42,403 bases of DNA, from the NCBI GenBank assembly GCA_025361845.1, contig JANYJL010000224.1, positions 1-42,403 on the forward strand, in the 5' to 3' direction. The stretch comes from Rhizobacter sp. Lineage in GTDB: Bacteria; Pseudomonadota; Gammaproteobacteria; Burkholderiales; Burkholderiaceae_C. How positions within the stretch are numbered: position 1 is the first letter of the stretch; the number at the start of each line of letters is the position of its first letter. The notes beneath the pieces were generated by a model, which had not been told where the DNA came from, did not search any database, and saw only the letters and a program-made list of their open reading frames with translations. Shown here piece by piece: positions 1 through 31,812 of this stretch. The position numbers were made by a program, and so were the translations under genes.

Positions 1-1104
1 GTTCACCGGGATCTGCACGATGCCGTTCAACTGGTACTCGACCGGGTCTTCGATCGTCACGATCTTCTCGGCGCCGTGGTTGATCTCGGTCAGCGCGGCG
101 TAGAGCGTCGTTGTCTTCCCGCTGCCGGTCGGGCCGGTGACGAGCAGCAGGCCGTAGGGCAGGCGCGCCAGCTCGCGCAGTTGCCGCACCGTCGGTTCGT
201 CGAAGCCCAGCGTCTCGAAGGTCAGGCCGCGCATATCGTCGGCCAGGCGCTGGCGGTCGAGGATGCGGATGACCGCGTCTTCACCGTGGATCGCCGGCAT
301 CACCGACACACGCAGGTCGATGTCGCGGCCGTCCAGGCGCACCTGGAAGCGGCCGTCCTGCGGCACGCGCCGCTCGGCGATGTCGAGTTCGGCCAGCACC
401 TTGATGCGCGAAACCACCTGCTCGGCGGTGGCGCGGCCGTCGATGCGCCCGGCCGCATCGAGCACGCCATCCACGCGCACCTTGATCGCCATGCCGGCGG
501 GGTCGCTCTCCAGGTGCAGGTCGCTCGCGCTGGCTTTGAGCGCGTCGAAGATCATCGAGCTGACGAGGCGCACCACCGGGCTGCTTTCGGCCGCGATGCC
601 GCCGAGCGACAGGTCTTGCGATGCGTTGTTCTCCGCATCGATCGTGTCGCCGCCGACGCCACTGAGCGCCCCTTCGGTCGCGCGCTGCGAGGCCTCGTGC
701 CGCTTCAGCCAGGCATGGATTTCATCGGCCGTGGCCAGGGCGATGCGGAAGGGCCGCTGCACGCGGTGTTCGATCCAGTCGATGCGGGCGGCGTCGAACG
801 GATCGTCGATGACAAGCCAGGTTTGTTCGATGCGCACTGACACCTCGTGCGCCAGAAACACCAGCCGTCGCTCTGCGTCCGCAAAGGCCAGCAAATCGAA
901 AGCGGGGGCCAGGCCGTGCAGGCGCTCGGCATCGAACACCGGCAAGGAGGCGGCCTCGCCGCAAGCGGCCAGCGTTTCGGCCGGCGACAGGCCGAGCGCC
1001 TGCGCGGCGAGCGTCACGAAATGCTGACCGCTCGCCCGCGCCTGCTGCGATTGCGCCGCGAAGAAGCTGATCGACGGTGCGGTCACCGCGGCATCGCGCT
1101 TCAT
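1..1104 (-). CDS. gspE: Type II secretion ATPase GspE, C-terminus cut by the window edge
   Basis: This is the cytoplasmic hexameric ATPase that powers pseudopilus assembly in type II secretion. 368 codons are visible, reading from ATG at 1104 off the left edge. A Walker A motif GPTGSGKTT lies near residue 323, followed by a VTIEDPVEY-type Asp box. Upstream are the GspE-like middle domain (DLHLES, RVDGVLD) and the arginine-rich RILDR segment. The zinc-binding and C-terminal parts are beyond the edge. The start codon overlaps the stop of gspF (ATGA), so the genes are translationally coupled. PilB/MshE-type pilus ATPases share these motifs. The adjoining gspF and gspG make GspE the better call. 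Confidence 0.93.
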   Translation of the reverse strand, partial: MKRDAAVTAPSISFFAAQSQQARASGQHFVTLAAQALGLSPAETLAACGEAASLPVFDAERLHGLAPAFDLLAFADAERRLVFLAHEVSVRIEQTWLVIDDPFDAARIDWIEHRVQRPFRIALATADEIHAWLKRHEASQRATEGALSGVGGDTIDAENNASQDLSLGGIAAESSPVVRLVSSMIFDALKASASDLHLESDPAGMAIKVRVDGVLDAAGRIDGRATAEQVVSRIKVLAELDIAERRVPQDGRFQVRLDGRDIDLRVSVMPAIHGEDAVIRILDRQRLADDMRGLTFETLGFDEPTVRQLRELARLPYGLLLVTGPTGSGKTTTLYAALTEINHGAEKIVTIEDPVEYQLNGIVQIPVN

Positions 1105-2316: not shown

Positions 2317-2751
2317 TCAGCGCTCGATGCCCACGTCCTGCGCATCGCCCGTGCCGCCGGGTTGCCCATCGCGGCCGAGCGTCAGCAGGTCGAACTCACC
2401 CTTCACTCCCGGCGTGCGGTAGATGTAGGGCCGGCCCCAGGGGTCTTGCGGCAGTTCACGCTTGAGGTAGGCACCGGCCCAGCGCGGTTCGTCCTCGGGC
2501 TTGACCATCAGCGCCGCCAGCCCTTGTGTGCCGTTCGGGTAGTGGCCGGTGTCGATGCGGTACTGGTCGAGCGCCTTCTCGAGCGAATCGATCTGCGCCC
2601 TCGCCACCTGGGTCTCGCTCTTGCCGATCTGTGCAAAGAACTTCGGCCCCACGAGACCGGCCAGCAGGCCGATGATGACCATGACCACCAACAACTCCAG
2701 CAGGGTGAAACCGGCCTCGCTGCTGCTGTCCGCCAGCAGGGGTTTGCGCAT
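2317..2751 (-). CDS. gspG: Type II secretion major pseudopilin GspG, internal start inside the epsA reading frame
   Basis: GspG is the main subunit of the type II pseudopilus. Read from ATG 2751 the product is 144 residues, typical of the family. It has a 14-residue leader MRKPLLADSSSEAG, a prepilin peptidase site G/FTLLE with the required Glu at mature position 5, one hydrophobic helix, and a C-terminal GspG domain (DSLEKALDQYRIDTGHYP, DPWGRPY). A GGGGG run sits 8 bases before this ATG and could serve as a ribosome binding site. There is no stop codon between this gene and the upstream LuxR regulator: the frame is open from 3624 to 2317. GspG may therefore be made alone from the internal ATG, as part of a 435-residue fusion, or both. 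Confidence 0.85.
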   Translation of the reverse strand: MRKPLLADSSSEAGFTLLELLVVMVIIGLLAGLVGPKFFAQIGKSETQVARAQIDSLEKALDQYRIDTGHYPNGTQGLAALMVKPEDEPRWAGAYLKRELPQDPWGRPYIYRTPGVKGEFDLLTLGRDGQPGGTGDAQDVGIER

Positions 2752-3624
2752 GCTCGAAGCCCCCAGCAGCTTGATCGAGATGGCCTTCGACACCGCCTGC
2801 GCGCGGTTGCTCGCATTCAGTTTGCGCAGGATCTTCTGCACATGGTTCTTCACCGTCAAAGGGCTGATGCTGAGGATCATGCCGATCTCCAAATTGCTTT
2901 TGCCTTCACGGATCCAGCGCAGGATTTCGACCTCGCGGTCGGTGACACCGGCATCGCGCTCGCCGGTCTGCTCCACCTCGGCCGCGGGCCGCTCGCGTGT
3001 CTGCGCGCGGCTGTAGGCGCTGAAGACATGCGGCACCAGCATCTGGGCCAGTTGCCGGTCACGCTCGCCGGGCATGCTGCGCATGGAGACGAAGGCGAAG
3101 AAACAATGCGCCGATGCCGCCGTCTGAGCCTTCGGAATGCCATGCACCACACAATCGCCGAAGCCGATCGAGGCCAGTTCTTCACCGAGGCGCACATCGG
3201 CGCTGTACTCGGCGTCCTTGCTGATGAGCAGAGGCTCATAGCCGTCGCCGATCCAGCGGTCCATCAGGTCGTTGGCCAGCCCGTCGCGGGGGTGGCAAAG
3301 ACGGGCGAGGGCCTCGGGGTCGATCGGGATGCTGTAGTAGTAGTCGTAGAACATGCGCGCGCTCTGGCTGCGTGGCACACCGCACACCAGCACGTCGTGC
3401 GGCAACACCGACTGCAAGCGCCCCTGCGCCCAGACGAAAAACTCGTAGCGGCGGCGCACCAGCACGGCGTCGGCCATGACCTTGAGCAGGGCATTCACGT
3501 CACTGTTGCTCAAGACGGCCTGGATCGCCGCGGAGGCTTCGGTCTGCGTCTCGTCGCGCAAGGCCGGGACGGGCGGCTCGGCGGCGCGCGTCGGCGCGCG
3601 CGCGGCTGCAGCATCAGTAAGCAT
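2317..3624 (-). CDS. epsA: LuxR-family regulator EpsA, in-frame with GspG (435-residue open frame)
   Basis: Residues 1-291 resemble the EpsA family of LuxR-type regulators found in exosortase B exopolysaccharide loci. An N-terminal sensor-like region (about 28-205) contains an FVWAQGRLQSVLPHDVLVCG stretch. A GerE-type helix-turn-helix follows at about 227-285 (VTDREVEILRWIREGKSN, LTVKNHVQKILRKL). EpsA would be expected to end near residue 290, but the codons run directly into GspG at Met292. ATG 3624 overlaps the last 11 bases of the upstream sugar transferase gene. The role, control of exopolysaccharide genes, is inferred from family and position. If translated through, the product would be a DNA-binding domain joined to a pseudopilin membrane helix. 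Confidence 0.8.
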   Translation of the reverse strand: MLTDAAAARAPTRAAEPPVPALRDETQTEASAAIQAVLSNSDVNALLKVMADAVLVRRRYEFFVWAQGRLQSVLPHDVLVCGVPRSQSARMFYDYYYSIPIDPEALARLCHPRDGLANDLMDRWIGDGYEPLLISKDAEYSADVRLGEELASIGFGDCVVHGIPKAQTAASAHCFFAFVSMRSMPGERDRQLAQMLVPHVFSAYSRAQTRERPAAEVEQTGERDAGVTDREVEILRWIREGKSNLEIGMILSISPLTVKNHVQKILRKLNASNRAQAVSKAISIKLLGASSMRKPLLADSSSEAGFTLLELLVVMVIIGLLAGLVGPKFFAQIGKSETQVARAQIDSLEKALDQYRIDTGHYPNGTQGLAALMVKPEDEPRWAGAYLKRELPQDPWGRPYIYRTPGVKGEFDLLTLGRDGQPGGTGDAQDVGIER

Positions 3625-5017
3625 TGGTTTGCCTCAGAACGATCTTGACGGTGCGCAGAAGAATCTGCAGGTCGAAGCCGAGCGACCAGCGTCGCAGGTA
3701 GTCGAGGTCGAATTCGATGCGCTGGCGCATCTTGTCGACGGTGTCGGTCTCGCCGCGCAGGCCGTTGACCTGGGCCCAGCCGGTGATGCCGGGCTTGACC
3801 TTGTGCCGCATCATGTAGCCCTTGATGAGGTGTCGGTACAACTCGTTGTGGGCCACCGCATGCGGGCGCGGGCCGACCATGCTCATGCGGCCTTGCAGCA
3901 CGTTGAACAGCTGCGGCAGTTCGTCGATCGAGGTCTTGCGCATGAAGGCGCCGAAGGGCGTGATGCGCTGGTCGCCGCGCGTGGCCTGCGTGACCTCGGC
4001 GCCGTCTTCGGCCACCGTCATGCTGCGGAATTTGTAGACCACGATGTCCTTGCCGTCGACGCCGTAGCGGCGCTGCCTGAACATCACCGGCCCGGGCGAG
4101 CTGAGCTTCACGCCGATGGCCGCCAGCAGCATCAACGGCGACAGCAGCGCGAGTGCGAAGCTCGCGATCAGCAGGTCGCTGGCACGCTTGACGATGCCGT
4201 TGACACCGACGAAGGGGGTCTCGCAGATGGCCACGACCGGGATACCGTTCACATCGTCGATGCGCGCCTGGATCAGGTCGAAGATGAAGATGTCGGGCAC
4301 GAAGTAGATCGACGCGGTGGTGTCCTTCATCTCGTCCAGCAGCTTCAGCACGCGGGGCTGTGCGTTCATCGGCAGCGCGATGAAGACAGCCTCGATGCCG
4401 TGCGCCTTGACATAGCCGGCGGCCGTGTGGATGTCGCCCAGCAACGGGCCTTCCTCAGGGGCTGCACCGGCACCGTCTTCACCCGTGTCGTCGCCGAAGA
4501 ATCCCTTGAACTGGAAACCCAGCGTCGGCTCGTTGCACATGTCGCGGGCGAGCTTGCGACCGATGTCGTTGGTGGACACGATCACCGCACGGCGAAAGCC
4601 GTCGATCGCCAGCAACTGGGGGACCAACAGCGGAATCACCCTGTGGGCGGTGTATTGCAGCAGTGGCGTCAGGCCGATCCAGGTGAACAGCATCGCCGGC
4701 TCGAAGTGGCCGATGAAACGCGTGGCGTAGCCGAAGAAGACCATCAGCCCGGCCACCATGAGCCAGTTCGACAGGATGCCGCCGAGCAGGCCGCGGCGGA
4801 TGCGGCTGATCGACACCTCGCCCGGAAAGGTGAGCGAAAACGCGATCAGCGCGAGCACCAGTTCCGCCCCGACGAAGGGGGTGTCGGTCACAGCGCAACT
4901 GATGAACAGTGCCAGCACGATCAGCACCGGGTCCACTGTCATGCGCACCAGCCCGATGACGGAGCTGCGGCCGCGGGCGATGTCGGTGGAGCGGGAGGTG
5001 ATCAGCATGGACGGCAT
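3614..5017 (-). CDS. Undecaprenyl-phosphate sugar phosphotransferase (priming glycosyltransferase)
   Basis: This integral membrane enzyme starts each exopolysaccharide repeat by transferring a sugar 1-phosphate, probably glucose, to undecaprenyl phosphate. The product is 467 residues with the full WcaJ/PssZ-type layout: several N-terminal membrane helices (about 25-130), a central nucleotide-fold domain (about 140-260), a hydrophobic segment (283-306) and the catalytic bacterial sugar transferase domain. That domain carries YKFRSM, DELPQLFNVLQG, MSMVGPRPH and PGITGWAQVNGL. The gene is first in a minus-strand group with epsA, gspG, gspF and gspE. No clear Shine-Dalgarno precedes ATG 5017, and ATG 5008 is an alternative. 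Substrate identity cannot be read from sequence. Confidence 0.92.
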   Translation of the reverse strand: MPSMLITSRSTDIARGRSSVIGLVRMTVDPVLIVLALFISCAVTDTPFVGAELVLALIAFSLTFPGEVSISRIRRGLLGGILSNWLMVAGLMVFFGYATRFIGHFEPAMLFTWIGLTPLLQYTAHRVIPLLVPQLLAIDGFRRAVIVSTNDIGRKLARDMCNEPTLGFQFKGFFGDDTGEDGAGAAPEEGPLLGDIHTAAGYVKAHGIEAVFIALPMNAQPRVLKLLDEMKDTTASIYFVPDIFIFDLIQARIDDVNGIPVVAICETPFVGVNGIVKRASDLLIASFALALLSPLMLLAAIGVKLSSPGPVMFRQRRYGVDGKDIVVYKFRSMTVAEDGAEVTQATRGDQRITPFGAFMRKTSIDELPQLFNVLQGRMSMVGPRPHAVAHNELYRHLIKGYMMRHKVKPGITGWAQVNGLRGETDTVDKMRQRIEFDLDYLRRWSLGFDLQILLRTVKIVLRQTNAY

Positions 5018-5124: not shown

Positions 5125-5748
5125 TCATGCGGACGGGTGCGCGCTCTTGCGCCGACGGCGCAGGCCCAGCCCCAACACGCCGAAGCCGGCAGCCAGCATC
5201 AGCACCGAACTCGCTTCGGGAACGGGCGCCACGGTGCAGTTGAAGCGGATCACCATGTCGTCGTAGTCGTAGTCGGAGCCCAGGCGCGAGCGGCCGTCTT
5301 CGAACAGCAGGCGACCGGAGAGGCCCCCCTGGTCGAGCACGATGCCGACGTTGGCGTCGTTCCACGCGTAGTTGTTGCGGTTGCTCGACTCGGCACGGCC
5401 CGCGCTTTGAAACGCGATGTCGAGCAGACCGACGTCGGCCCGCGTCGTGAGGGTCGTGCCCAGGCTCGCGCGGCTGTCGATCATCGAGGCGCCGTCGGGC
5501 CCGAAGAACTGGTTGCGTTGTGCCGCGTCCGAGCCTTCGAAGGTGTAGCTGATGAAGGCGCGTTGACCCGGGTCGAGCGTCAGGCGCAACTTGCCCACGG
5601 TGAAGTTCAGGCCGCTGCCGACGATCTGGTTGGCACCGGTGGTGTTGCGGGCGGCCGTGCCTCCGATCACTTCGAGAAAACTTTCGGCCTTGGCGGCCGG
5701 AAGCAAGGCGGCCAAAGCAAGGCCGAGTGCGAGCAGACGAAGTTTCAT
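5125..5748 (-). CDS. PEP-CTERM sorting domain protein, VPEAS variant
   Basis: This is a secreted protein of unknown function, predicted to be recognised by an exosortase and cut near its C-terminus. From ATG 5748 it is 207 residues. It has a signal peptide of about 20 residues ending AAKA, a body without a recognised enzyme domain, and an Asp-rich DYDYDDMVIRFN stretch resembling DUF4114-type proteins. The C-terminal signal is VPEAS followed by a hydrophobic helix and an RRRRK tail. AAGGG sits 6 bases before the chosen ATG; an upstream in-frame ATG at 5922 would add 58 residues that do not look like protein. XrtB, encoded at 28508-29383, is its likely sortase. Confidence 0.85.
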   Translation of the reverse strand: MKLRLLALGLALAALLPAAKAESFLEVIGGTAARNTTGANQIVGSGLNFTVGKLRLTLDPGQRAFISYTFEGSDAAQRNQFFGPDGASMIDSRASLGTTLTTRADVGLLDIAFQSAGRAESSNRNNYAWNDANVGIVLDQGGLSGRLLFEDGRSRLGSDYDYDDMVIRFNCTVAPVPEASSVLMLAAGFGVLGLGLRRRRKSAHPSA

Positions 5749-6103
5749 GGGGGACCCTTGTGGAGTGATGAGTTGGTGTGATCCGCGCTCGCCGCTTTCC
5801 GACAGCACACGCGATGACAGCGTGATGACGAGACGCATCGGACTCGGCGGTCCGCGTGGAACATCACCGCCATTGAAGAGTAGGCAAGCGCGCTGAAGCG
5901 CTCTATCTCGGATCGGTGGCAATTGCCGAAGGTCTACGCGCCGTTCGGACTACCTGAAACACATTCGCTTGCGGGTTCCCGGCCGATTCGGTCTGCGCCG
6001 GATGGCGGACCCCGCGAGTCGGGGGGGGGGGTGGAGGCGCCGGTGTGTTGTTGTTTGTGGAGGACATCAAACCGTCAAGTTCGACCTCTAGGCTGCGCTT
6101 CTC
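5749..6103. other. Divergent gene-free region containing an 11-G tract
   Basis: These 355 bases separate the minus-strand PEP-CTERM gene from the plus-strand protease/exosortase operon and should hold both promoters. I see no convincing gene. Notable pieces are an uninterrupted run of 11 G at 6021-6031, 73 bases before the plus-strand start, two ATGAC copies six bases apart near 5812-5830, and the perfect palindrome GGCAATTGCC near 5917-5930. I could not assign sigma-70 boxes with confidence. Confidence 0.6.
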
Positions 6104-6781
6104 ATGAAACGTTTCGCCTTTCGTTCACCGGCTTTCGTTCGTTGCCTGCCCTTCGTCGTCTTCGTCGTCGCGCTGGCTGCGCGCGGTGCCGCCGACGGCC
6201 ACACCGACACACGCTGGCTCTACCCATTGCAGGCGGGTGCGAGCGCACTCGCGCTGGCTTTTCTGTGGCGCCACTACAGCGAGTTGCGGGCGGACCGGCG
6301 TGCGGCGGCGCGGCCGGCGCATTGGTTGTTGAGCATCGGCGTGGGGCTGGCGGTGTTCGTGCTGTGGATCGCCCTGACCGAGCCCTGGATGCGTGTGGGC
6401 GAGCCTGTCGCCGCGTTCGTTCCGGTGCAGGCCGATGGCAGCCTGCAATGGGGCTTGATCGCGTTGCGAGGCATGGGCGCGGTGCTCGTGGTGCCCTTGA
6501 TCGAGGAACTGTTCTGGCGCTCGTTCCTGATGCGCTGGATCGACAACCGCGACTTCCTCGCCCACGCGCCGCAACACACGAGCCTGTATGCCTTGCTGGC
6601 CAGCTCGGCCGTGTTCGCGCTCGGGCACGACCTGTGGCTGGCCGGCCTGCTGGCGGGCCTGGCCTTCGGTGCCTTGTACCGTCACACCGGCCGCATCTGG
6701 CACGCCGTGGCGGCACATGCCGTGGCGAACCTGGCGCTGGCTGTCTGGGTGGTGCACCAACGCGCCTGGGGCTTCTGGTGA
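6104..6781 (+). CDS. CAAX-type intramembrane protease (Abi/CPBP family), exosortase-associated
   Basis: This polytopic membrane protein of 225 residues belongs to the CPBP family, which includes a subgroup known from exosortase loci (pepcterm_CAAX). The conserved catalytic positions are visible: the EELFWR glutamates at 134-135 with Arg139, His175 in FALGHD, and His205/Asn209 in HAVANL. About six hydrophobic helices are apparent. It is the first gene of a tightly packed plus-strand operon, and its stop overlaps the GTG start of the next gene. Family knowledge suggests intramembrane proteolysis, perhaps of sorted proteins or leftover sorting tails. The actual substrate is unknown. No strong ribosome binding site precedes ATG 6104. 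Confidence 0.88.
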   Translation: MKRFAFRSPAFVRCLPFVVFVVALAARGAADGHTDTRWLYPLQAGASALALAFLWRHYSELRADRRAAARPAHWLLSIGVGLAVFVLWIALTEPWMRVGEPVAAFVPVQADGSLQWGLIALRGMGAVLVVPLIEELFWRSFLMRWIDNRDFLAHAPQHTSLYALLASSAVFALGHDLWLAGLLAGLAFGALYRHTGRIWHAVAAHAVANLALAVWVVHQRAWGFW

Positions 6782-7629
6782 GGCGGCGCGACTTCGCGGT
6801 GGCTTCGGCCACGGCGCTTGCGATGCCGCCGGCCTTCGCGCTGATGGCTGGCGCCGCACCCGATTCACCGAGCGCGCGGCTCGACGCCAACCGCGCCGAC
6901 TCACCCTACGCCTGCGTGGCCAGCCTGATGGGTGGCGGTTGCTACAGCGCGGTGTGCATCGCGCCGCAATTCGTGCTGACGGCCGCGCATGTGGCTGCCA
7001 AAGCGCCGGACCTGTTCCTCTACCTCAACCTCGGGCGCGACCTGAGCCACCGCTACGCCATCAAGCGTGTGGCCACACCACCGCAGCCCGCGACGGCGGA
7101 CCCATCGCTGCCCGTCGGCGACCTCGCCCTGCTCGAAATCGATGGCCGCCTGCCCGAAGGCTTGGCATTGCCGCCTTTGGCCAGCACGCCGGCACGCGAG
7201 GGCCTGCGCATCGAGCTCGCAGGTTATGGCGCCTCGGGCCACGGCGACCGCGGCGTGACGGTCGGCAGCAACCCGATGCTCAAGCGCATCGGCGCCAACC
7301 GCATCGACCGCGTGCTGCGCAGCGACGATGCCAGCGCCACGCCGATGCTGTATTACTTTGGTTTCGATGCCGCGAACGCACGCGATGGGCGTTCGCTGGG
7401 TAACGGCATCGAAGCGGGTCTGGCCAGCGGTGACTCGGGCAGCCCGGCCTTCGTGCGTGAGAACGGCCGGCTCGCGCTGCTGGGCATCAACAGCTTCGTG
7501 ATCCGCAGTGGCTCGCCGTCGGCGCCCGCGAACGGCTTCGGCACGGTCGGTGGCGGCCAGGTGCTCGCCGCGCACAAGGCCTGGCTGCATTCGGTGCTGG
7601 GCGAAGGTGTGTGGGCCGGGTTGGCCTGA
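6778..7629 (+). CDS. Tat-exported trypsin-like serine protease 1
   Basis: This secreted S1-family serine protease is 283 residues from GTG 6778. The start gives an N-terminal RRRDF twin-arginine motif, a hydrophobic stretch and a cleavage region near AFALMAG, and it overlaps the preceding stop as GTGA. The catalytic triad looks intact: His71 in LTAAHV, Asp115 in DLALLEI and Ser220 in SGDSGSP. Cys46, Cys55 and Cys60 could form a disulphide after export. Unlike its paralogue at 8738, it ends without a C-terminal membrane helix or sorting tail. The frame stays open upstream to 5923, but that part overlaps the CAAX protease gene and is not credible protein. Substrate unknown. Confidence 0.87.
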   Translation: MRRRDFAVASATALAMPPAFALMAGAAPDSPSARLDANRADSPYACVASLMGGGCYSAVCIAPQFVLTAAHVAAKAPDLFLYLNLGRDLSHRYAIKRVATPPQPATADPSLPVGDLALLEIDGRLPEGLALPPLASTPAREGLRIELAGYGASGHGDRGVTVGSNPMLKRIGANRIDRVLRSDDASATPMLYYFGFDAANARDGRSLGNGIEAGLASGDSGSPAFVRENGRLALLGINSFVIRSGSPSAPANGFGTVGGGQVLAAHKAWLHSVLGEGVWAGLA

Positions 7630-8151: not shown

Positions 8152-8741
8152 TGAAGGCCGTGCTGGGGCGCGGGCTGGCCGCGCTGCTGTTGCTCTCGGC
8201 GCTCGCCTCTGCGGCCCAGCCGGTGTTGATCGCCGGGTTGATTCCGCTCTGGCGCCTTGCCATCGAAACCCTCGAACCGGACTTCCGGGTCGTCGACATG
8301 CGCGCAACGTCGACCGAGATCGAACTCCTCGTCACCCCCGCCCGCATCATCATCGTCGGCACCCGCGCGATCGTGCCCGAGGGGTCGGAGCAGGCGGCGG
8401 CATCCATGTCACGCGGCAACGTGTGGTTGCTGCTGACGGTCTTCCTCGTGACGCTGGTGGCTTGGCCTGTCGTGAACCCGATGCGACCCGCAGGCGCGTG
8501 GTCCCTGCGGCTGGCGCTCGGTCTGCCGGCGCTTGGCCTACTGCTGGCGCTCGATGCGCCGATCACGCTGCTCGGGCCTTTGCGATCGCTGATCACCGGC
8601 ATGGCTTCGGCGGAGGCCGACATCTGGGTCATCGGTGCGCGCTTTCTCCGCGGCGGTGGCCGCTACCTCGTGGCCATTGCGGGTGCAGCCCTGATCTGCC
8701 TGCTGAGCCCACCCTTCTTGCTGCGAAATGACACGCCATGA
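8151..8741 (+). CDS. Exosortase-associated small membrane protein of unknown function
   Basis: I do not recognise a family. The 196-residue product has an N-terminal hydrophobic segment, a short soluble loop of about 60 residues (DFRVVDMRATSTEIELLV), and about three further helices toward the C-terminus. This resembles proteins that follow small exosortases, but that is an impression only. The ATG overlaps the exosortase stop (TGATG), and its own stop overlaps the next start (ATGA), so it is translated with the cassette. A role as accessory or partner to the sortase is inferred purely from position. Confidence 0.7.
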   Translation: MKAVLGRGLAALLLLSALASAAQPVLIAGLIPLWRLAIETLEPDFRVVDMRATSTEIELLVTPARIIIVGTRAIVPEGSEQAAASMSRGNVWLLLTVFLVTLVAWPVVNPMRPAGAWSLRLALGLPALGLLLALDAPITLLGPLRSLITGMASAEADIWVIGARFLRGGGRYLVAIAGAALICLLSPPFLLRNDTP

Positions 8742-9706
8742 ACCGCCGACGCAGATCGATCTTCCTCGCCGGCAGCCTGGCCTCACTGGCCGTGGCCCGC
8801 CCCGCGCACGCGCTGATGGCCGGCGCCCTGCCCGACACCGCGGTCGCGCGCATCGACCCCAACACGCCGGCCTCTTCCTGGACCTCGGCGGTCGCGGTGA
8901 TCGCCAACGGCGGCACCTATTCGGGCGTGGTGGTCGCACCGCGCTACGTGCTGACGGCTGCGCACGTGCCCGGCGCGGCGCTGCCGGCGGCCGTGTCGGT
9001 GCAGGTGAATGCGCAGAGCACGCCGGTGGTGATTGCCGCGACGGCCATCACGATCTTTCCGGGCGCGAGCTTTCCGTACGACGACCTGGCCTTGATCACG
9101 CTGGCCACGCCGGTGCCCGACACGGTGGAGGTGTTGCCGATCTATCGGCAGGCCTTGACGGTGCGCCAGACCGTCACCCTCGTGGGCTACGGTTCATCAG
9201 GCAACGGCGACATCGGCCCCAGCGTGCCGAGCGTGGCCGGCGTGAAACGCAGCGGCCTGAACAGCATCGATGCCGTGCAGACGACGATCGACGCCTCGGG
9301 CCGCACGAGCCTGTTCTACCTGATGGACTTCGACGGCCCCACGGGCAACGGCGGCTTCGGTGCGGCCACCCTCGGCAATGCGCTGGAAACGGGCCTCGCC
9401 AGCGGTGACTCCGGCAGCCCGGCGTTTGCCACCATCGGTGGTCAGCGCTGGCTCATGGGCATCAACAACTTCACCGCAGCCTCACCCGGCAACACCACAA
9501 TTGATTTCAAGTTCGGCACCCTGGCCGGCGGCATGCTGCTGAGCGACCCACGTTTCATCGCCTGGCTGACGACGCAGACGCAGAACACACTCGGCCAATC
9601 GAGCGCGAGTGCCGGCGATGCGCCGCTGCCGGTGTGGGCGATGGCGGCGTTGGCGGCCGCGCTGGCCGGCAGTGCGGTGGCCCGCCGACGCGGCGCGCAG
9701 CCCTGA
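8738..9706 (+). CDS. Tat-exported trypsin-like serine protease 2 with C-terminal LPVWA sorting-like tail
   Basis: This 322-residue paralogue of the protease at 6778 shares LMAGA-PD after the signal and the GLASGDSGSPAF block. The N-terminal RRRRSIFLAG is a good twin-arginine signal. Triad residues are His76 (LTAAHV), Asp115 or Asp116 (YDDLALI) and Ser225 (SGDSGSP). The C-terminus differs from protease 1: DAPLPVWA at about 294-301, then a hydrophobic helix and an ARRRG basic tail. This tripartite form is that of an exosortase target, but with LPVWA in place of the PEP box. It is the last gene of the operon. Its likely role is a surface-processed protease; its substrate is unknown. Confidence 0.87.
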   Translation: MNRRRRSIFLAGSLASLAVARPAHALMAGALPDTAVARIDPNTPASSWTSAVAVIANGGTYSGVVVAPRYVLTAAHVPGAALPAAVSVQVNAQSTPVVIAATAITIFPGASFPYDDLALITLATPVPDTVEVLPIYRQALTVRQTVTLVGYGSSGNGDIGPSVPSVAGVKRSGLNSIDAVQTTIDASGRTSLFYLMDFDGPTGNGGFGAATLGNALETGLASGDSGSPAFATIGGQRWLMGINNFTAASPGNTTIDFKFGTLAGGMLLSDPRFIAWLTTQTQNTLGQSSASAGDAPLPVWAMAALAAALAGSAVARRRGAQP

Positions 9707-9741: not shown

Positions 9742-10875
9742 TCACGGCCGCAGCGCGACGAGCTGCAGCACCATCGTCATCGCGCGCTCGTAGACCGCGT
9801 CGGGCGACATCCTGGAAGCTTCGGCGGGAGTAGCTGCGAAGGCTTGTGGCCAGGCGCTACGCAGGGCCGAAGCAGCGAGCAGCGTGGGCCGACCATCGAC
9901 ACCACGCAAGGCCATGCCGATGAGACGCCCTTCCCGGTCGAACACCGGCCCGCCATGCGGCCCGACGCTGGCGAGTTCAGAACCGAGGGCGTACACACTC
10001 GCCGTCCGCCACGAGCCGACGAAGCCAGTGTGCAGCAGCGGCCACATCGGCGTGACCAGTGCATCGGGACGCGCCGCGAATTCCACCGCCATCTGCGGGC
10101 TGCCTGGAAACGCATCGCGTTGAGCGACGGGAAACAGCGGCGTCGGATCATGCAGCGGTGAATCAAGCGCCAGTTCGGCCAGGCCCAACTCCGGCAGCAC
10201 ACGCGCGAGCCTTGCCGCGACGGTATGGCCTTGCGCGTCGCGCACCCAGAGTGACGAGTTGGGGGCGACGGCTTCGGCCGGTACCAGCGCCTGCTGGCCG
10301 CTCGGCAAGAGCAGGCCAGTGCTCATCACACGCGCCTGCGACGGCAGGGCGATGTCGGCATACGGTGCCTGGCGCGTGGCGCCTGCCAGCAGCCGTTCGT
10401 CGGGCGGCGCGGCAGGATCGCGCAAGCGTTCGGCCGTGGCGACCAGCAGCGGGTTGCCGGGCTGGCGTTGCATCGCGGCATCGAGCGTCTGCTGCGCCAA
10501 GGCGGTCTGACCGCCGATGTGCAGGAGCCACGAATACAAGCCCGCACCTTCGACCACATCGGCATGCGCGCCCGCCGCGTGGGCCGAGAAGGCCAGTGCG
10601 CGGCGGTACTCGCCCGCCTGCATCCAGCTGCGCACCAGGCCCCATTCGGCCACCGCGTCGTGGCGGAGTGCCGCGGCGCGTTCGTAGGCCCGCAGCGCAG
10701 CACCCGCATCGTTGGCACGCAGGGCCTGTTCGCCTTCTTCGACGAGACCGTGAAAGTCGCCGCCGGGGTCAGCGAAGGCGCTGCCGCTGACCGCAACGGA
10801 GAGTGCCAGCAGCAGCCGCGCTGCCGCGCCGGGCCAGCGTTTCACGCGCGGGCGATCACGGGTTGGCGAGAGCAC
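9742..10875 (-). CDS. TPR protein with degenerate trypsin-like domain (probable pseudoprotease)
   Basis: This exported 377-residue protein has a signal peptide ending near SAFADP, a TPR-like helical region (about 40-150) and a trypsin/HtrA-like fold (about 180-360). The fold is recognisable from LVPAEAV, RVLPELGLAELAL and GPHGGPVFDREGRLIGMAL. At the three triad positions the residues are Glu201 instead of His, Gly231 instead of Asp and His307 instead of Ser. Catalysis is therefore not expected, and a binding or scaffolding role is inferred. It follows the nucleotidase gene: ATG 10875 overlaps it by 20 bases, while GTG 10845 starts 10 bases beyond its end and would also keep the signal peptide. 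The start is uncertain. Confidence 0.78.
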   Translation of the reverse strand: MLSPTRDRPRVKRWPGAAARLLLALSVAVSGSAFADPGGDFHGLVEEGEQALRANDAGAALRAYERAAALRHDAVAEWGLVRSWMQAGEYRRALAFSAHAAGAHADVVEGAGLYSWLLHIGGQTALAQQTLDAAMQRQPGNPLLVATAERLRDPAAPPDERLLAGATRQAPYADIALPSQARVMSTGLLLPSGQQALVPAEAVAPNSSLWVRDAQGHTVAARLARVLPELGLAELALDSPLHDPTPLFPVAQRDAFPGSPQMAVEFAARPDALVTPMWPLLHTGFVGSWRTASVYALGSELASVGPHGGPVFDREGRLIGMALRGVDGRPTLLAASALRSAWPQAFAATPAEASRMSPDAVYERAMTMVLQLVALRP

Positions 10876-12817: not shown

Positions 12818-13396
12818 TCAGGTGCGGCGGCGTGCAGTGACGCCGAGGACAGCCAGGCCGGCGAGCAACAGCACCCAGGTGCCGGGCTCGGGCACGGCGG
12901 CCAGCATCACTGCACCGATCGTCGCGTTGAGCGGTGCACCGGCGTTGGTCACGCTTTGCGCGAGCACGCCGGTCACGGTGTAGGTGCCCGGTGCAGTCAG
13001 CAACCAGCCGCCGCGGCTGAAGCTCGGGTCAGCCCAGGCGGTGTCGAAATTGGTCACAGCCGTTTGCGTTCGCGAATACGCCGCCACAGGCACGGCGCTG
13101 GTGAGTTGCGAAACGCCGTTCACGCTGACGTTGAAGGTGTCGCCGGCAAAGCCGGCATCGAGCACGCGCAATTCGACGGGTGCCGCCACGGTGAAGGTGA
13201 AGGACAACATCGAGCCGTCGCTGTAGTCGATCCATTCGACACCACCCGACAGCGCCTGCACATCGTCCACATCGAACTCATGCCACTGGCCGTCCACGGC
13301 CAACGGGGTGATGGTGGCGTGCGCCATGCCGGCAGTGCACAGCGCCAGGGCGACGGCCGCACGGGCGGCAAGCGGGTTCAGTTTCAGCAGGTTCAT
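12818..13396 (-). CDS. PEP-CTERM sorting domain protein
   Basis: This small exported protein of 192 residues starts at ATG 13396, preceded by a good GAGGAG ribosome binding site. It has a signal peptide ending MAHA, and a beta-rich body of about 140 residues with no enzyme motif (FDVDDVQALSGG, SFTFTVAAPVELRVLD), of the kind often seen in exosortase targets. The C-terminal signal is VPEPGTW followed by a hydrophobic helix and a TARRRT tail, starting near residue 168. It is the first gene of the minus-strand group with the 5'-nucleotidase. XrtB is the likely sortase. The biological function is unknown. Confidence 0.88.
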   Translation of the reverse strand: MNLLKLNPLAARAAVALALCTAGMAHATITPLAVDGQWHEFDVDDVQALSGGVEWIDYSDGSMLSFTFTVAAPVELRVLDAGFAGDTFNVSVNGVSQLTSAVPVAAYSRTQTAVTNFDTAWADPSFSRGGWLLTAPGTYTVTGVLAQSVTNAGAPLNATIGAVMLAAVPEPGTWVLLLAGLAVLGVTARRRT

Positions 13397-13703
13397 GGCA
13401 ACTCCTCGACGACCGGCACCAACACGATGCATGGAGGTGACTGTCGGGTCCGCATCGAGCTGCGTCTATCCCGGCGGCATGACAAGGCCGAAGGGCATGT
13501 AGTCCGGATGGCGCGGATGCGAGTGGCGACGCATCACACCGATCCAGACCGGAACGCGTCACACGGCTTTCATCATGGTCGGTTCCACTGGAACATCCAC
13601 CCACACTGGCCGGACGACGCTGCGATGCGCGGGCCCACGCACCATGCGCACGCCATCGCGGGCCCAGGTTCTTCCCACAACATCCGGCAGTTCAAGCGCT
13701 GAA
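13397..13703. other. Divergent gene-free region between PEP-CTERM gene and double glycosyltransferase
   Basis: These 307 bases separate divergent genes and should contain both promoters. The plus frame is open back to an ATG at 13575, but its codons give a Thr/Ser/Arg-rich string unlike protein, so I leave it non-coding. I see no clear sigma-70 or sigma-54 boxes, repeats or RNA genes here. Confidence 0.5.
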
Positions 13704-27830: not shown

Positions 27831-27846
27831 CGGCGCTCAGGCGCCG
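27831..27846. terminator. Candidate hairpin between convergent operons, overlapping the 3' end of epsI
   Basis: CGGCGC at 27831-27836 and GCGCCG at 27841-27846 form a perfect 6-bp stem with a TCAG loop, just between the convergent GT2 and epsI genes. A second small stem, ACGCT/AGCGT, lies immediately before it. Neither has a T-run, so a bidirectional stop of transcription is plausible but not proved; the stem also overlaps the end of the epsI coding sequence. Confidence 0.35.
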
Positions 27847-28511
27847 GAGCCACCAGCCAACTGGTGACGAACTGGCGCGCTGACCGCGCCGAGCAGACCG
27901 CGCAGGAATTCGTCTTGCGCAGCAAAGCTGGCCGGGGCATCCCTCGAGATGCTGGAAACGCGCACCAGCAAACCGTCGGGGATCTTGCCCGCCAGGCCAT
28001 AGCCGATCTGCGCGATCAATCGGTCGAGCCGCCCGATGACCACCCGGTCCCCCATCGTGAACCAGTAGGACACCGGCTCCGAACGATCAGCCTTCTCGGC
28101 ATGCATGCGCACCAGCGGCACCGAGGCGCCTGCCGCGTTCAACGTGTCCTTGTGCACGTCGCGCACGATGAAACCCTGCGCGGTGTAGCAAACCTCCTGG
28201 CGGTGCGCCTTCAGGCTGTCGGACTGGTCACCACCGTAGGCCACCACCAGCATCATGCGTTCGCCTCGATCGTTCACGTAGGCCCGCGAGACGATCTGGC
28301 CGTAGAGCTTGTCCAGGTTCTGCTGCACGTCGGGCGTGGGCGAAATGGGAATCACGCTGGCATCGACACGCCAGCCACCGAACTGCGCGGGGATCAGGGC
28401 TTCGAGTTGAAAGCCCGGGTTGGCCACGGCAACAGGGCGCCACGCACTGGCCAGCGCGGCGCAACAGAGCATTGCGACACCCGCAATCCACGAGACGGGT
28501 TTCACGTTCAT
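27837..28511 (-). CDS. epsI: Exosortase-associated protein EpsI
   Basis: This membrane-anchored periplasmic protein of 224 residues is the usual partner of exosortases in EPS loci. It has an N-terminal hydrophobic segment (about 8-25) and an EpsI domain with FGGWRVD, YVNDRGERMMLVVAYGGDQ, AHRQEVCYTAQGF and SYWFTMGD. The conserved Cys in EVCYTAQGF is present. Its start overlaps the xrtB stop by 4 bases (ATGA). The molecular role of EpsI is not established; it is proposed to help the exosortase or the polysaccharide side of sorting. It is the last gene of the epsD-E-F-G-xrtB-epsI operon. Confidence 0.93.
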   Translation of the reverse strand: MNVKPVSWIAGVAMLCCAALASAWRPVAVANPGFQLEALIPAQFGGWRVDASVIPISPTPDVQQNLDKLYGQIVSRAYVNDRGERMMLVVAYGGDQSDSLKAHRQEVCYTAQGFIVRDVHKDTLNAAGASVPLVRMHAEKADRSEPVSYWFTMGDRVVIGRLDRLIAQIGYGLAGKIPDGLLVRVSSISRDAPASFAAQDEFLRGLLGAVSAPVRHQLAGGSGA

Positions 28512-29383
28512 TCGGCACTCCGGCTCGGGCGCATCACACGCTTCATCAATTCATCCATGCCCAGCAAGGCCAGCAGCGCGAAGACGAAGAGCAAGACGCC
28601 GGAGGTGCTGTGCAGGAAGCCCTGCCCCGCTTCGTCGCCGAAGTGGTAAGTGATGAGGATCAACACCATCACGCGAACCACGTTGGCGACACAGGCGATG
28701 GGCACGATGGCGGCCAGCAGCACCCCGTTTCGCAGCCAGCCTTTCTGGTAGGTGAGGTGCATGTAGAGCACGCCGAGCGCGGCGAGCGAATAGATCGAGT
28801 TCAACCCCGAACAGGCGTCGGCCACGAGCATGCGATAGGGCCCGATCGAGATGACGACCCCGTCGCGCGCGATCGGGTAGCCCGCGTGGTACAGCAAGGT
28901 CTCGGCCGCGACCGACACGTACTGCTTGAGCCGCGAGGTCATCGCCACCAGCACGAAGCCCGGCAGCGGAATCATGAACACGAGAAAGAGCAAGGGGAAC
29001 CACAAGGCGCGCAGCGCCGCCGGGCCCCAGACCAGCAACAGCACACCGGCGAGGATCGGAATGTGCGCCGTGACCTCGAACAGGGGCAGGTTCTGCGAAC
29101 GACCGACGAAGTAGAAAAACAAGCCGATGAACAGGACGATGCCACCCGCCACCGGCGCACCGGCCGTCGGCAGGACTTGAAGCTCCTCGCGCTTGCGCCA
29201 GGCGAGCCACCAGAAAACCAGGGTGACGATGATGCCGTGCTCATAGGCCTCGTCGTTCCAGAGCGTGCCATTCAGGCGCAGGTAGGTCGGCAGCAGCAGG
29301 GCCAGCACGCCCAGGGCCAGCGGCGCCCAGGCCAGCAGGGCGGGCAGCGGGCGGGCCGGCACTTGTTCGAGGACAGAAGACAT
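28508..29383 (-). CDS. xrtB: Exosortase B
   Basis: This inner-membrane cysteine transpeptidase of 291 residues is predicted to cut PEP-CTERM proteins at the PEP box and pass them on toward the cell surface. About eight membrane helices are present. The three active residues are clear: Cys191 in ADACSGLNS, Arg237 in ANVVRVMVL and His258 in FLHSTSG. Assignment to type B rather than A rests on the surrounding epsD/E/F/G genes and EpsI type, a mixture of sequence and context. Two PEP-CTERM proteins in the window, at 5125 and 12818, are candidate substrates. Confidence 0.92.
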   Translation of the reverse strand: MSSVLEQVPARPLPALLAWAPLALGVLALLLPTYLRLNGTLWNDEAYEHGIIVTLVFWWLAWRKREELQVLPTAGAPVAGGIVLFIGLFFYFVGRSQNLPLFEVTAHIPILAGVLLLVWGPAALRALWFPLLFLVFMIPLPGFVLVAMTSRLKQYVSVAAETLLYHAGYPIARDGVVISIGPYRMLVADACSGLNSIYSLAALGVLYMHLTYQKGWLRNGVLLAAIVPIACVANVVRVMVLILITYHFGDEAGQGFLHSTSGVLLFVFALLALLGMDELMKRVMRPSRSAE

Positions 29384-29393
29384 GGTGTGGGTT

Positions 29394-30395
29394 TCAGCGT
29401 TCGTTCATGACGCCGCCGAGCACTTCGACGCTGTGCCGCGTGAGTTTGTCGGACAGGCGCTGCGCATCGGCCAGGCGGGTGCGGTTGCGCCGCGTCACGA
29501 GCAGGCAGCCGCTGGCGCGCACGGCGGCCGTCAGCGCTTCGCTGTACTGCGATGCGGGGGGCGTGTCGATCAGGATGAAGGCATAGCGCTGAGCGAGCAC
29601 GCCGAGCAACTGCGCAAATTGCCGGCGCTCCAGCAACGCCTGCGCATCGGGCTTGGCCGAGCCCGCCGGCAGCAGGTGCAAGCGTGGCTGGCCGGGTACG
29701 GCGCGGATGGGGGCGCGGGCCACGTCACGCGCCAGGTAGTCGGTCAGGCCGCTGCGGTTATCGACACCGAAGAAGGTGTGCATCGATGGCTTGCGCAGGT
29801 CGGCATCGATGACCAGCGTGTCTTCGTCGAGCTGGGCCAGCTGCATTGCGAGGTGCGCACAGACATGGCTGCGGCCTTCACCGTCGCCATGGCTCACGAT
29901 GGCCAGCGTGCGCTGTTCGGGCTCAGGGCCGAACCAGCGCAACACGAGCTGCGAGCGCACCGAGCGGAACACTTCGGCTTGCGCATCGCGGCCCTGCGTG
30001 GGCAGCAGCACCGCCGCTTCTTCGTCGAAGGTGGAAGGAATGAAATCGACATCGAACTGCCGTGCCAAAGCCAGGTCGATGTCGGCACGCACCACCATGC
30101 CGAGCGCGATCGCCAACTCGCCGAAGCGCCGCGGGTTTTGCGCCTGCTGCGCGAGCACGGCATCGACCTGCGGCGCTTCGAGCCGGCCCAGCTCGACCAG
30201 GATGTTGCCGAGCCGGCTCATTGGGACACCTTCGTGCTGCGCACTTCGGTATTCGCCCTTGGAGCGGCCCGGCGGGCTCATGCCGACAGTCGCACCTGCA
30301 GGCGCGGAGGCCGGGTTATCTTCGTGTTTGCCGGTGGACGGATCGAAGATGGTTTCGGGCCAATCAGCCGGTGCGATTTTCAGATTGCGTGCCAC
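29394..30395 (-). CDS. epsG: EpsG-type chain-length determinant tyrosine kinase
   Basis: This cytoplasmic protein of 333 residues is of the CpsD/BY-kinase type and works with EpsF on chain length and export. An N-terminal region has LGNILVELGRL and GELAIALGMV, a GspE-N-like domain seen in EpsG. The nucleotide fold carries GDGEGRS (about 170-176), VIDADLRKP (about 195-203) and FILIDTPP. The Walker A lysine is replaced by arginine, which I recall as common in EpsG proteins. No C-terminal tyrosine cluster is seen. GTG 30395 has a strong GGGGAG ribosome binding site 5 bases ahead and starts one base after the epsF stop; ATG 30419 is an alternative. Confidence 0.88.
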   Translation of the reverse strand: MARNLKIAPADWPETIFDPSTGKHEDNPASAPAGATVGMSPPGRSKGEYRSAQHEGVPMSRLGNILVELGRLEAPQVDAVLAQQAQNPRRFGELAIALGMVVRADIDLALARQFDVDFIPSTFDEEAAVLLPTQGRDAQAEVFRSVRSQLVLRWFGPEPEQRTLAIVSHGDGEGRSHVCAHLAMQLAQLDEDTLVIDADLRKPSMHTFFGVDNRSGLTDYLARDVARAPIRAVPGQPRLHLLPAGSAKPDAQALLERRQFAQLLGVLAQRYAFILIDTPPASQYSEALTAAVRASGCLLVTRRNRTRLADAQRLSDKLTRHSVEVLGGVMNER

Positions 30396-30396
30396 G

Positions 30397-31812
30397 TCAG
30401 CTCCCCTGCGGCGCGGCAATCGGGCCGCGCCATGCCAAGGCAGCCGGGTCGCGGCGGCGCGGCGCGGCGCGCGGAACAGAGCCGAGCATCGGCAACTTCA
30501 GGCCCGCTTCCAGATCGTCGGCACTGCGTATGCGGCGGTCAACCAGTTCCACCAGGAACGCCGCGGCCAATCCCATCAACAGACCGAGCACCCCGCTCAG
30601 CATCAGGTTGCGTTGCACTTTCGGGCTGCTCGGTTCACCGGGCACCGCGGCCGAGTTCAGGATGTAGGCATTGGTCTGCGTGTTCTGGCTTTCCAGGCGC
30701 GTCTGCGCCAGGCGCTGCAAGGCCACGTCGAACACACGTTGAGCGTTTTCGGCTTCGCGTTGCAAGGTCGACATCTCGTCACGCTGCTGCTTGATCTGCA
30801 ACACACGTTGCTTCTGCGCCGCGACAGCGTTGCGCACGCCGCCCTCGCGCCGGTCCGACACCGCGGCCACCGTGGCCACGCTGACATTCGCATTGCCGAG
30901 TTCGGTTTGCAGTCGCTCGCGCAGGCTTGCCAGTTCGGCTTGCAGGCGCTCGAGCGTCGGGTGGGCGGCGCCGTACACCTGGCTGGCTTCCTGCAAACGT
31001 GTTTCGGTGCGCAGCAACTCGGAGCGCAGGTTCTGCACCACCGGTGTCGAGCCCACTTCGGGCACGCTGCTCACGCTGGCGGTGCTGGTGTCGGAGCGCG
31101 AGCGGGAGTCGACCGATTGCGACTGCGCCAGCACCAATTGCTGCGACAGTTCCTGCAAGCGGATGCTCTCCACATCGAGCCGTTCGTCGTTGGCGACGAT
31201 GCCGTTGCGTTGCTGATAGGCCGACACCTTGGCCTGCGCGGTTTCGAGGTCGGCGCGCAGGCTTTTCAACTGTTCGTCGAACCACGAGGCGTAGAGCTTC
31301 GACGGCTGGTTGCGCAGCTCCAGGCTGGTGGCGATGTAGGTCTTGGCGAAGGCCTCGACCACCTGGGCCGCGAACTGCGGATCGGTGCCCGTGAAGCTCA
31401 AGGCCACGACCGAGCTTTCGCGCGAGGGTTTCACTTCGAGCTTCTTCGTCAGCAGGCCTGCGAAGTAAGCGTCGACGGAGCCGATTCCCTGTGTAGTGTC
31501 CCGCCACTGCTGAACGGCGGAGGGGTTGCGGTCGATGCCCAGGGACTTCACCACCTCCCGAGCCACACGCTCGCTTTGCAAGACGTCAATCTGCGTCGCG
31601 AGATAGGTCTGCGCGAGCATCGGCGTGCCGGCGCTGGCGCCGCTGCCCAGCGCGTCGGTCCCGCGCGGCTCGATCACCATCGTCGTCGTCGCCGTGTACT
31701 GCTTGGGCAACAGCGCCGTGATGCCCGCGGTGGCGCCCACCATCGCGCCGCACACCAGCACCACCACCCACCAACGGGCGACGATCACGCGCAAGAATTG
31801 ACCGAGGTTCAA
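30397..31812 (-). CDS. epsF: EpsF chain-length determinant (Wzz/PCP family)
   Basis: This 471-residue inner-membrane polysaccharide co-polymerase regulates chain length and couples to EpsG and the EpsE exporter. It has an N-terminal membrane helix (about 14-35), a Wzz domain beginning KQYTATTTMVIEPRG, a long periplasmic coiled-coil region (about 180-385, LRADLETAQAKVSAYQQRNG and similar), and a second membrane helix at about 404-425 after a Pro-rich PGEPSSPKVQRN. The C-terminal tail is basic and cytoplasmic. It overlaps epsE by 4 bases at its start. Confidence 0.92.
   Translation of the reverse strand: MNLGQFLRVIVARWWVVVLVCGAMVGATAGITALLPKQYTATTTMVIEPRGTDALGSGASAGTPMLAQTYLATQIDVLQSERVAREVVKSLGIDRNPSAVQQWRDTTQGIGSVDAYFAGLLTKKLEVKPSRESSVVALSFTGTDPQFAAQVVEAFAKTYIATSLELRNQPSKLYASWFDEQLKSLRADLETAQAKVSAYQQRNGIVANDERLDVESIRLQELSQQLVLAQSQSVDSRSRSDTSTASVSSVPEVGSTPVVQNLRSELLRTETRLQEASQVYGAAHPTLERLQAELASLRERLQTELGNANVSVATVAAVSDRREGGVRNAVAAQKQRVLQIKQQRDEMSTLQREAENAQRVFDVALQRLAQTRLESQNTQTNAYILNSAAVPGEPSSPKVQRNLMLSGVLGLLMGLAAAFLVELVDRRIRSADDLEAGLKLPMLGSVPRAAPRRRDPAALAWRGPIAAPQGS

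Follow-up and report, generated by a model that had tools for sequence, protein, structure and literature searches.

How do a LuxR-type regulator and a subunit of a secretion system come to be written as one uninterrupted reading frame, and would such a frame be a device that couples them, an accident of one lineage, or an error in the sequence? The question is raised by a 42,403-nucleotide stretch of Rhizobacter sp. (contig JANYJL010000224.1; hereafter, the window), where a minus-strand frame from 3624 to 2317, 435 codons from ATG to TGA with zero internal stops, contains both EpsA and GspG. The frame is genuine and unusual in the sequence as given. An earlier interpretation made from the letters alone (hereafter, the sequence-only reading) had placed the two genes in a single frame without a stop between them, and both profiles indeed exceed their cutoffs there, with the borders that it gave: the EpsA region (TIGR03020, 195.1 bits against a cutoff of 170, covering positions 1-246 of the 247 of the model) occupies residues 38-282 (2779..3513, minus strand), with a LuxR/GerE helix-turn-helix at residues 228-280, and the GspG match (TIGR01710, 169.5 bits against 88.85) takes up residues 305-432 (2329..2712, minus strand), beginning at G305, with Met292 at 2751-2749. 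In Pfam, the 435-codon frame carries GerE at 228-280, N_methyl at 302-325 and T2SSG at 329-432, both PF07963 and PF08334 being above cutoff in the GspG part.

The translation likewise bears out the GFTLLE site and the leader of about 305 residues that had been proposed: the prepilin site lies between G305 and F306, mature GspG would begin at F306 (2709), and the leader would span 305 residues if the frame were translated through from the EpsA ATG. As there is no stop after EpsA, any EpsA started at 3624 must therefore be fused to GspG. In an AlphaFold2 model of the fusion (44 sequences, mean pLDDT 79.3, pTM 0.52), EpsA is ordered, a long pilin helix is predicted at residues 308-359, and residues 273-304 (2713..2808, minus strand) form a low-confidence junction (pLDDT <50) that takes in the EpsA end and the greater part of the GspG leader. 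Foldseek matched the pilin part of this model to solved pseudopilins, and the EpsA part to quorum-sensing LuxR proteins such as CviR and QscR (E about 1e-7), the TM-scores of these latter matches being low over whole chains, at about 0.4-0.5 by target.

The fused frame sits within a compact run of minus-strand genes. Upstream, and overlapping the EpsA start, lies an undecaprenyl-phosphate glucose phosphotransferase (TIGR03023; WcaJ; 3614..5017), and downstream a GspF-like inner membrane protein (PF00482; 1101..2297) and a GspE-like ATPase (1..1101) truncated by the contig end. The association of EpsA with an XrtB/PEP-CTERM locus is also found here, as the same window holds, above cutoff, exosortase B (XrtB, 28508-29383), EpsI (27837-28511) and proteins with the PEP-CTERM motif (5125-5922 and 12818-13432), together with EpsF (30397-31812), recovered by the profile search of the window, and an EpsG-like tyrosine kinase (29394-30419, minus strand; TIGR03029 235, under the cutoff of 313.8). 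The N-terminal stretch of this kinase resembles an MshE-type c-di-GMP-binding motif (37.5 against a cutoff of 38). Near the exopolysaccharide locus there is also a gene for a CAAX-type membrane protease beside two trypsin-like protease genes (6104-6781, 6901-7629 and 8738-9706, all on the plus strand), as well as a protein (9742-10875, minus strand) whose matches to trypsin-like and TPR domains are weak and fall under the Pfam cutoffs.

An open frame upstream of a prepilin site is not unusual by itself, since at 65% GC a run of 21 random codons remains open with a probability of 0.59, and 7 of 47 other gspG genes (counted after dropping duplicates and matches without a [GA][FMYIL][TS]L[ILVM]E site) have 159-258 open codons ahead of the site; a long open upstream frame was accordingly rejected as evidence of fusion. 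One of the seven belongs to the same genome as the window. None of them has an upstream Pfam domain: when the seven upstream stretches, ending just past the cleavage site, were scanned, six gave N_methyl only and one gave nothing. The remarkable point is that here the open upstream frame is a real gene, and it is the missing EpsA stop that constitutes the unusual feature, more than chance.

How far the window departs from the ordinary condition can be seen in the closest relative with an identical gene order, wcaJ-epsA-gspG-gspF-gspE (L006, JALHMQ010000023.1), a locus that the genome search placed in another family of the same order. There the two genes are separate and in different frames, the epsA TGA (5799-5801) overlapping the gspG ATG (5801-5803) as TGATG, an arrangement such as occurs where translation is coupled. 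The identities between the window and this locus are 56% for EpsA and 59% for GspG, within the range of their neighbours (GspF 50%, GspE 56%, WcaJ 65%), so that neither fused part looks decayed. Among the fetched loci, it is only in L006 (with its copies) and in the window that a pilin match follows the EpsA match within 600 nt. L006 also carries, at 1693-2529 on the minus strand, a gene which by eye looks similar to the protease genes of the window.

The end of EpsA itself was compared in 85 distinct frames, that of the window and 84 from the other fetched loci, once duplicates and matches below 100 bits had been dropped. Counted from the NRAQAV-type motif, the stop comes after 9-42 residues in all 84 other frames and after 157 in the window; the EpsA of genome G489, 53% identical, has its own stop 26 residues past the motif. 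In that genome (G489:C27:23000-31619, L167) gspF and gspE come immediately after epsA, with no gspG between. Aligned by eye, the tails (KLLGASS in the window, KLLASS in L006 and KLLGGSS in G489) suggest that the EpsA end, which is poorly conserved, was lost together with its stop just ahead of the GspG start. The genus is represented by one genome in the collection, and hence neither the direction of this change nor its fixation in the species is demonstrable. As a general rule, the adjoining of EpsA to type II secretion genes is weak: among 65 EpsA loci of L007-L085, a GspG-like match was present somewhere in the fetched stretch in 24, GspE in 7, WcaJ in 4 and GspF in 1.

GspG is probably still translated from its own start. 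The plainer option of the sequence-only reading, in which EpsA has lost its stop and GspG starts internally behind a GGGGG ribosome site, is the one that the analysis favours. The ATG of Met292 (2749..2751, minus strand) would give a protein of 144 aa with a 14-residue leader, MRKPLLADSSSEAG, and is preceded at 8 nt by GGGGG (2760..2764, minus strand), a candidate ribosome-binding site whose duplex with the anti-SD is calculated at -8.4 kcal/mol. This pairing is the strongest of those of the in-frame ATG, GTG and TTG codons (EpsA's own ATG has -5.6), and is equalled by 3.8% of the 1223 ATGs in the window; it is much weaker than that of the L006 GspG start (-15.2), and where coding sequence is GC-rich a GGGGG run may match the anti-SD fortuitously. 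A 14-residue leader fits the pattern of the 47 other gspG genes, of which 44 have their nearest in-frame ATG 4-50 residues ahead of the prepilin site and 3 have none.

The explanation we prefer, to which we would give a probability of about one half, is that the epsA stop was lost in this lineage at a coupled epsA/gspG junction, with GspG still made from Met292. The starting point would have been an ordinary, tightly coupled junction in a type II secretion-like operon, sharing its contig with an exosortase-B/exopolysaccharide locus; the loss of the epsA stop codon would have left both genes in one frame; GspG would have continued to be made from its own start (2751), and those ribosomes that start at EpsA would produce a 435-residue EpsA-GspG protein, probably with no special regulatory role. 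The 305-residue leader of this protein would be cytoplasmic, and the prepilin peptidase may remove it as it does other leaders. Were EpsA to need a free C-terminus, the intact domains without a stop would instead favour a sequence error or efficient cleavage.

A conserved EpsA-GspG fusion was found nowhere else in the contigs, the relatives, the genomes of the family, order and class, the plasmids or the viral contigs searched. The contig search kept 80 loci from 146 related stretches; of 60 relatives, 58 gave a match, and the negative holds among the matches listed; a search with EpsA alone in 399 genomes of the family gave 60 matches in 52 genomes, of which 30 were fetched as loci; and the 67 genomes of the family to which L006 belongs were also taken in. 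Beyond these, 399 genomes of the order were searched twice, with different centres and overlapping sets, and 369 of the class once, and no other full-span match at E 1e-62 appeared in either, with few candidates scored per genome. The EpsA-alone, order and class searches retained up to 4-6 candidates per genome under strict E-value limits, at which weak fusions could be missed. Among plasmids 1118 records matched, 0 of them covering 80% of the query, and no viral contig matched the fusion query.

Several candidates, whose matches seemed to cross from EpsA into GspG, were set aside on inspection. In L032 (query 230-431) the region ahead of GspG crosses stop codons and shows no helix-turn-helix by eye; L023, L041, L076 and L080 each have an EpsA stop, and no independent pilin match follows within 600 nt; and in L099 (genome G051) a TAG closes EpsA and a signal-peptide protein comes next. 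A further candidate, from the relatives search (G040), spans query 42-329 with one TGA. In the order search, the match of G841 has the same place and score as that of G423, which is L006. No EpsA-GspG fusion or folded prepilin leader was named in the titles and abstract openings of the literature searched, and neither LuxR nor EpsA occurs in the text of PMC1569441.

A fusion that is absent from every other genome examined could also be no fusion at all, the real genome having an EpsA stop and two ordinary genes, with an error of the draft sequence or its assembly hiding the stop. We regard this as possible rather than probable. The assembly is a draft of 399 contigs, 90.65% complete, and when single changes were tried over codons 280-304, 6 of 225 substitutions and 2 of 75 deletions gave an EpsA stop before residue 310; one substitution and one deletion would each let EpsA finish two codons ahead of Met292, with 11 residues past the motif, which is inside the range of the other EpsA tails. 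However, the frame still runs on for at least 371 residues after 73 of the 75 deletions and after every one of the 75 G insertions, and as most single-base indels give no nearby stop, only a few specific errors would do. Both domains, moreover, are otherwise intact, and consensus errors outside homopolymers are rare.

The most ambitious explanation, which builds on the release option of the sequence-only reading, is that EpsA is synthesised exclusively as a GspG leader, tethered to the membrane until it is freed by the cut between G305 and F306, so that assembly of the secretion system would control the regulator and link secretion to exopolysaccharide production. In its favour, EpsA started at 3624 is always fused in the given frame, cut site and topology fit prepilin leaders, and the model has an ordered EpsA, a low-confidence stretch at 273-304 and a pilin helix from 308. 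Prepilin leaders are described as cytoplasmic, cut on the cytoplasmic face and variable in length (PMC10191384), from which a cut at this site is possible, although the available part of the same source offers no example of a folded leader. Against it, the fusion is absent from L006, from G489 and from all the other collected EpsA frames, and a good GspG start is retained. The A24 prepilin peptidase was also undetected: PF01478 and PF06750 gave zero matches in the window's own assembly, 90.65% complete, and were recovered in 12/14 and 8/14 control genomes. As the same assembly has three T2SSF-type genes, besides several pilin-like matches, the missing peptidase is probably a gap in the draft; the negative still counts against release.

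Release by the prepilin peptidase is thus topologically possible but unlikely, and it is left unsupported because L006 has a stop between the genes and no second fusion was found: the examination of EpsA homologues for the same fusion, which had been proposed as a check, gave none, and the stop in a close relative, which had been named as the sequence half of what would speak against it, is there. The strict form of this idea, in which EpsA exists only as a folded 305-residue cytoplasmic leader and each cut that matures a subunit frees one exopolysaccharide regulator, we consider very doubtful. Highly improbable, finally, is an uncut fusion acting as a membrane-tethered one-component regulator resembling ToxR or CadC, with its DNA-binding domain at the membrane and the pseudopilin domain outside as sensor, for the order of DNA-binding domain, hydrophobic prepilin helix and pilin domain fits, but the GFTLLE site is intact and should be cut, no relative with such a layout was found, and GspG is a filament subunit for which we know of no sensor role.

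Most likely, then, the fusion arose by accident in one lineage or reflects a mistake in the sequence; it is no proven new switch. A real frame would hard-wire a regulator to a secretion subunit, and would offer a natural test of how large a folded leader can be and still be handled by the prepilin peptidase and the membrane-targeting route. At present it is one unconfirmed example, which mainly shows how coupled neighbours in an operon can merge.

Set beside known systems, the window EpsA resembles the XrtB/PEP-CTERM-associated LuxR-type regulators of TIGR03020 in its near full-length match and in the XrtB, EpsI and EpsF genes of the window, and differs from them in that it lacks its own stop and continues into GspG, whereas the 84 others end 9-42 residues past the motif. 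Its GspG is like the type II secretion major pseudopilins of TIGR01710 (solved relatives: PulG, 5wda; EpsG, 3gn9) in its score above cutoff, its GFTLLE site and a possible own start that would give a 14-residue leader, but the frame upstream is open through a real gene and not through a domain-less stretch. The L006 locus shares the order wcaJ-epsA-gspG-gspF-gspE, and there epsA and gspG, kept separate in different frames, are joined by TGATG.
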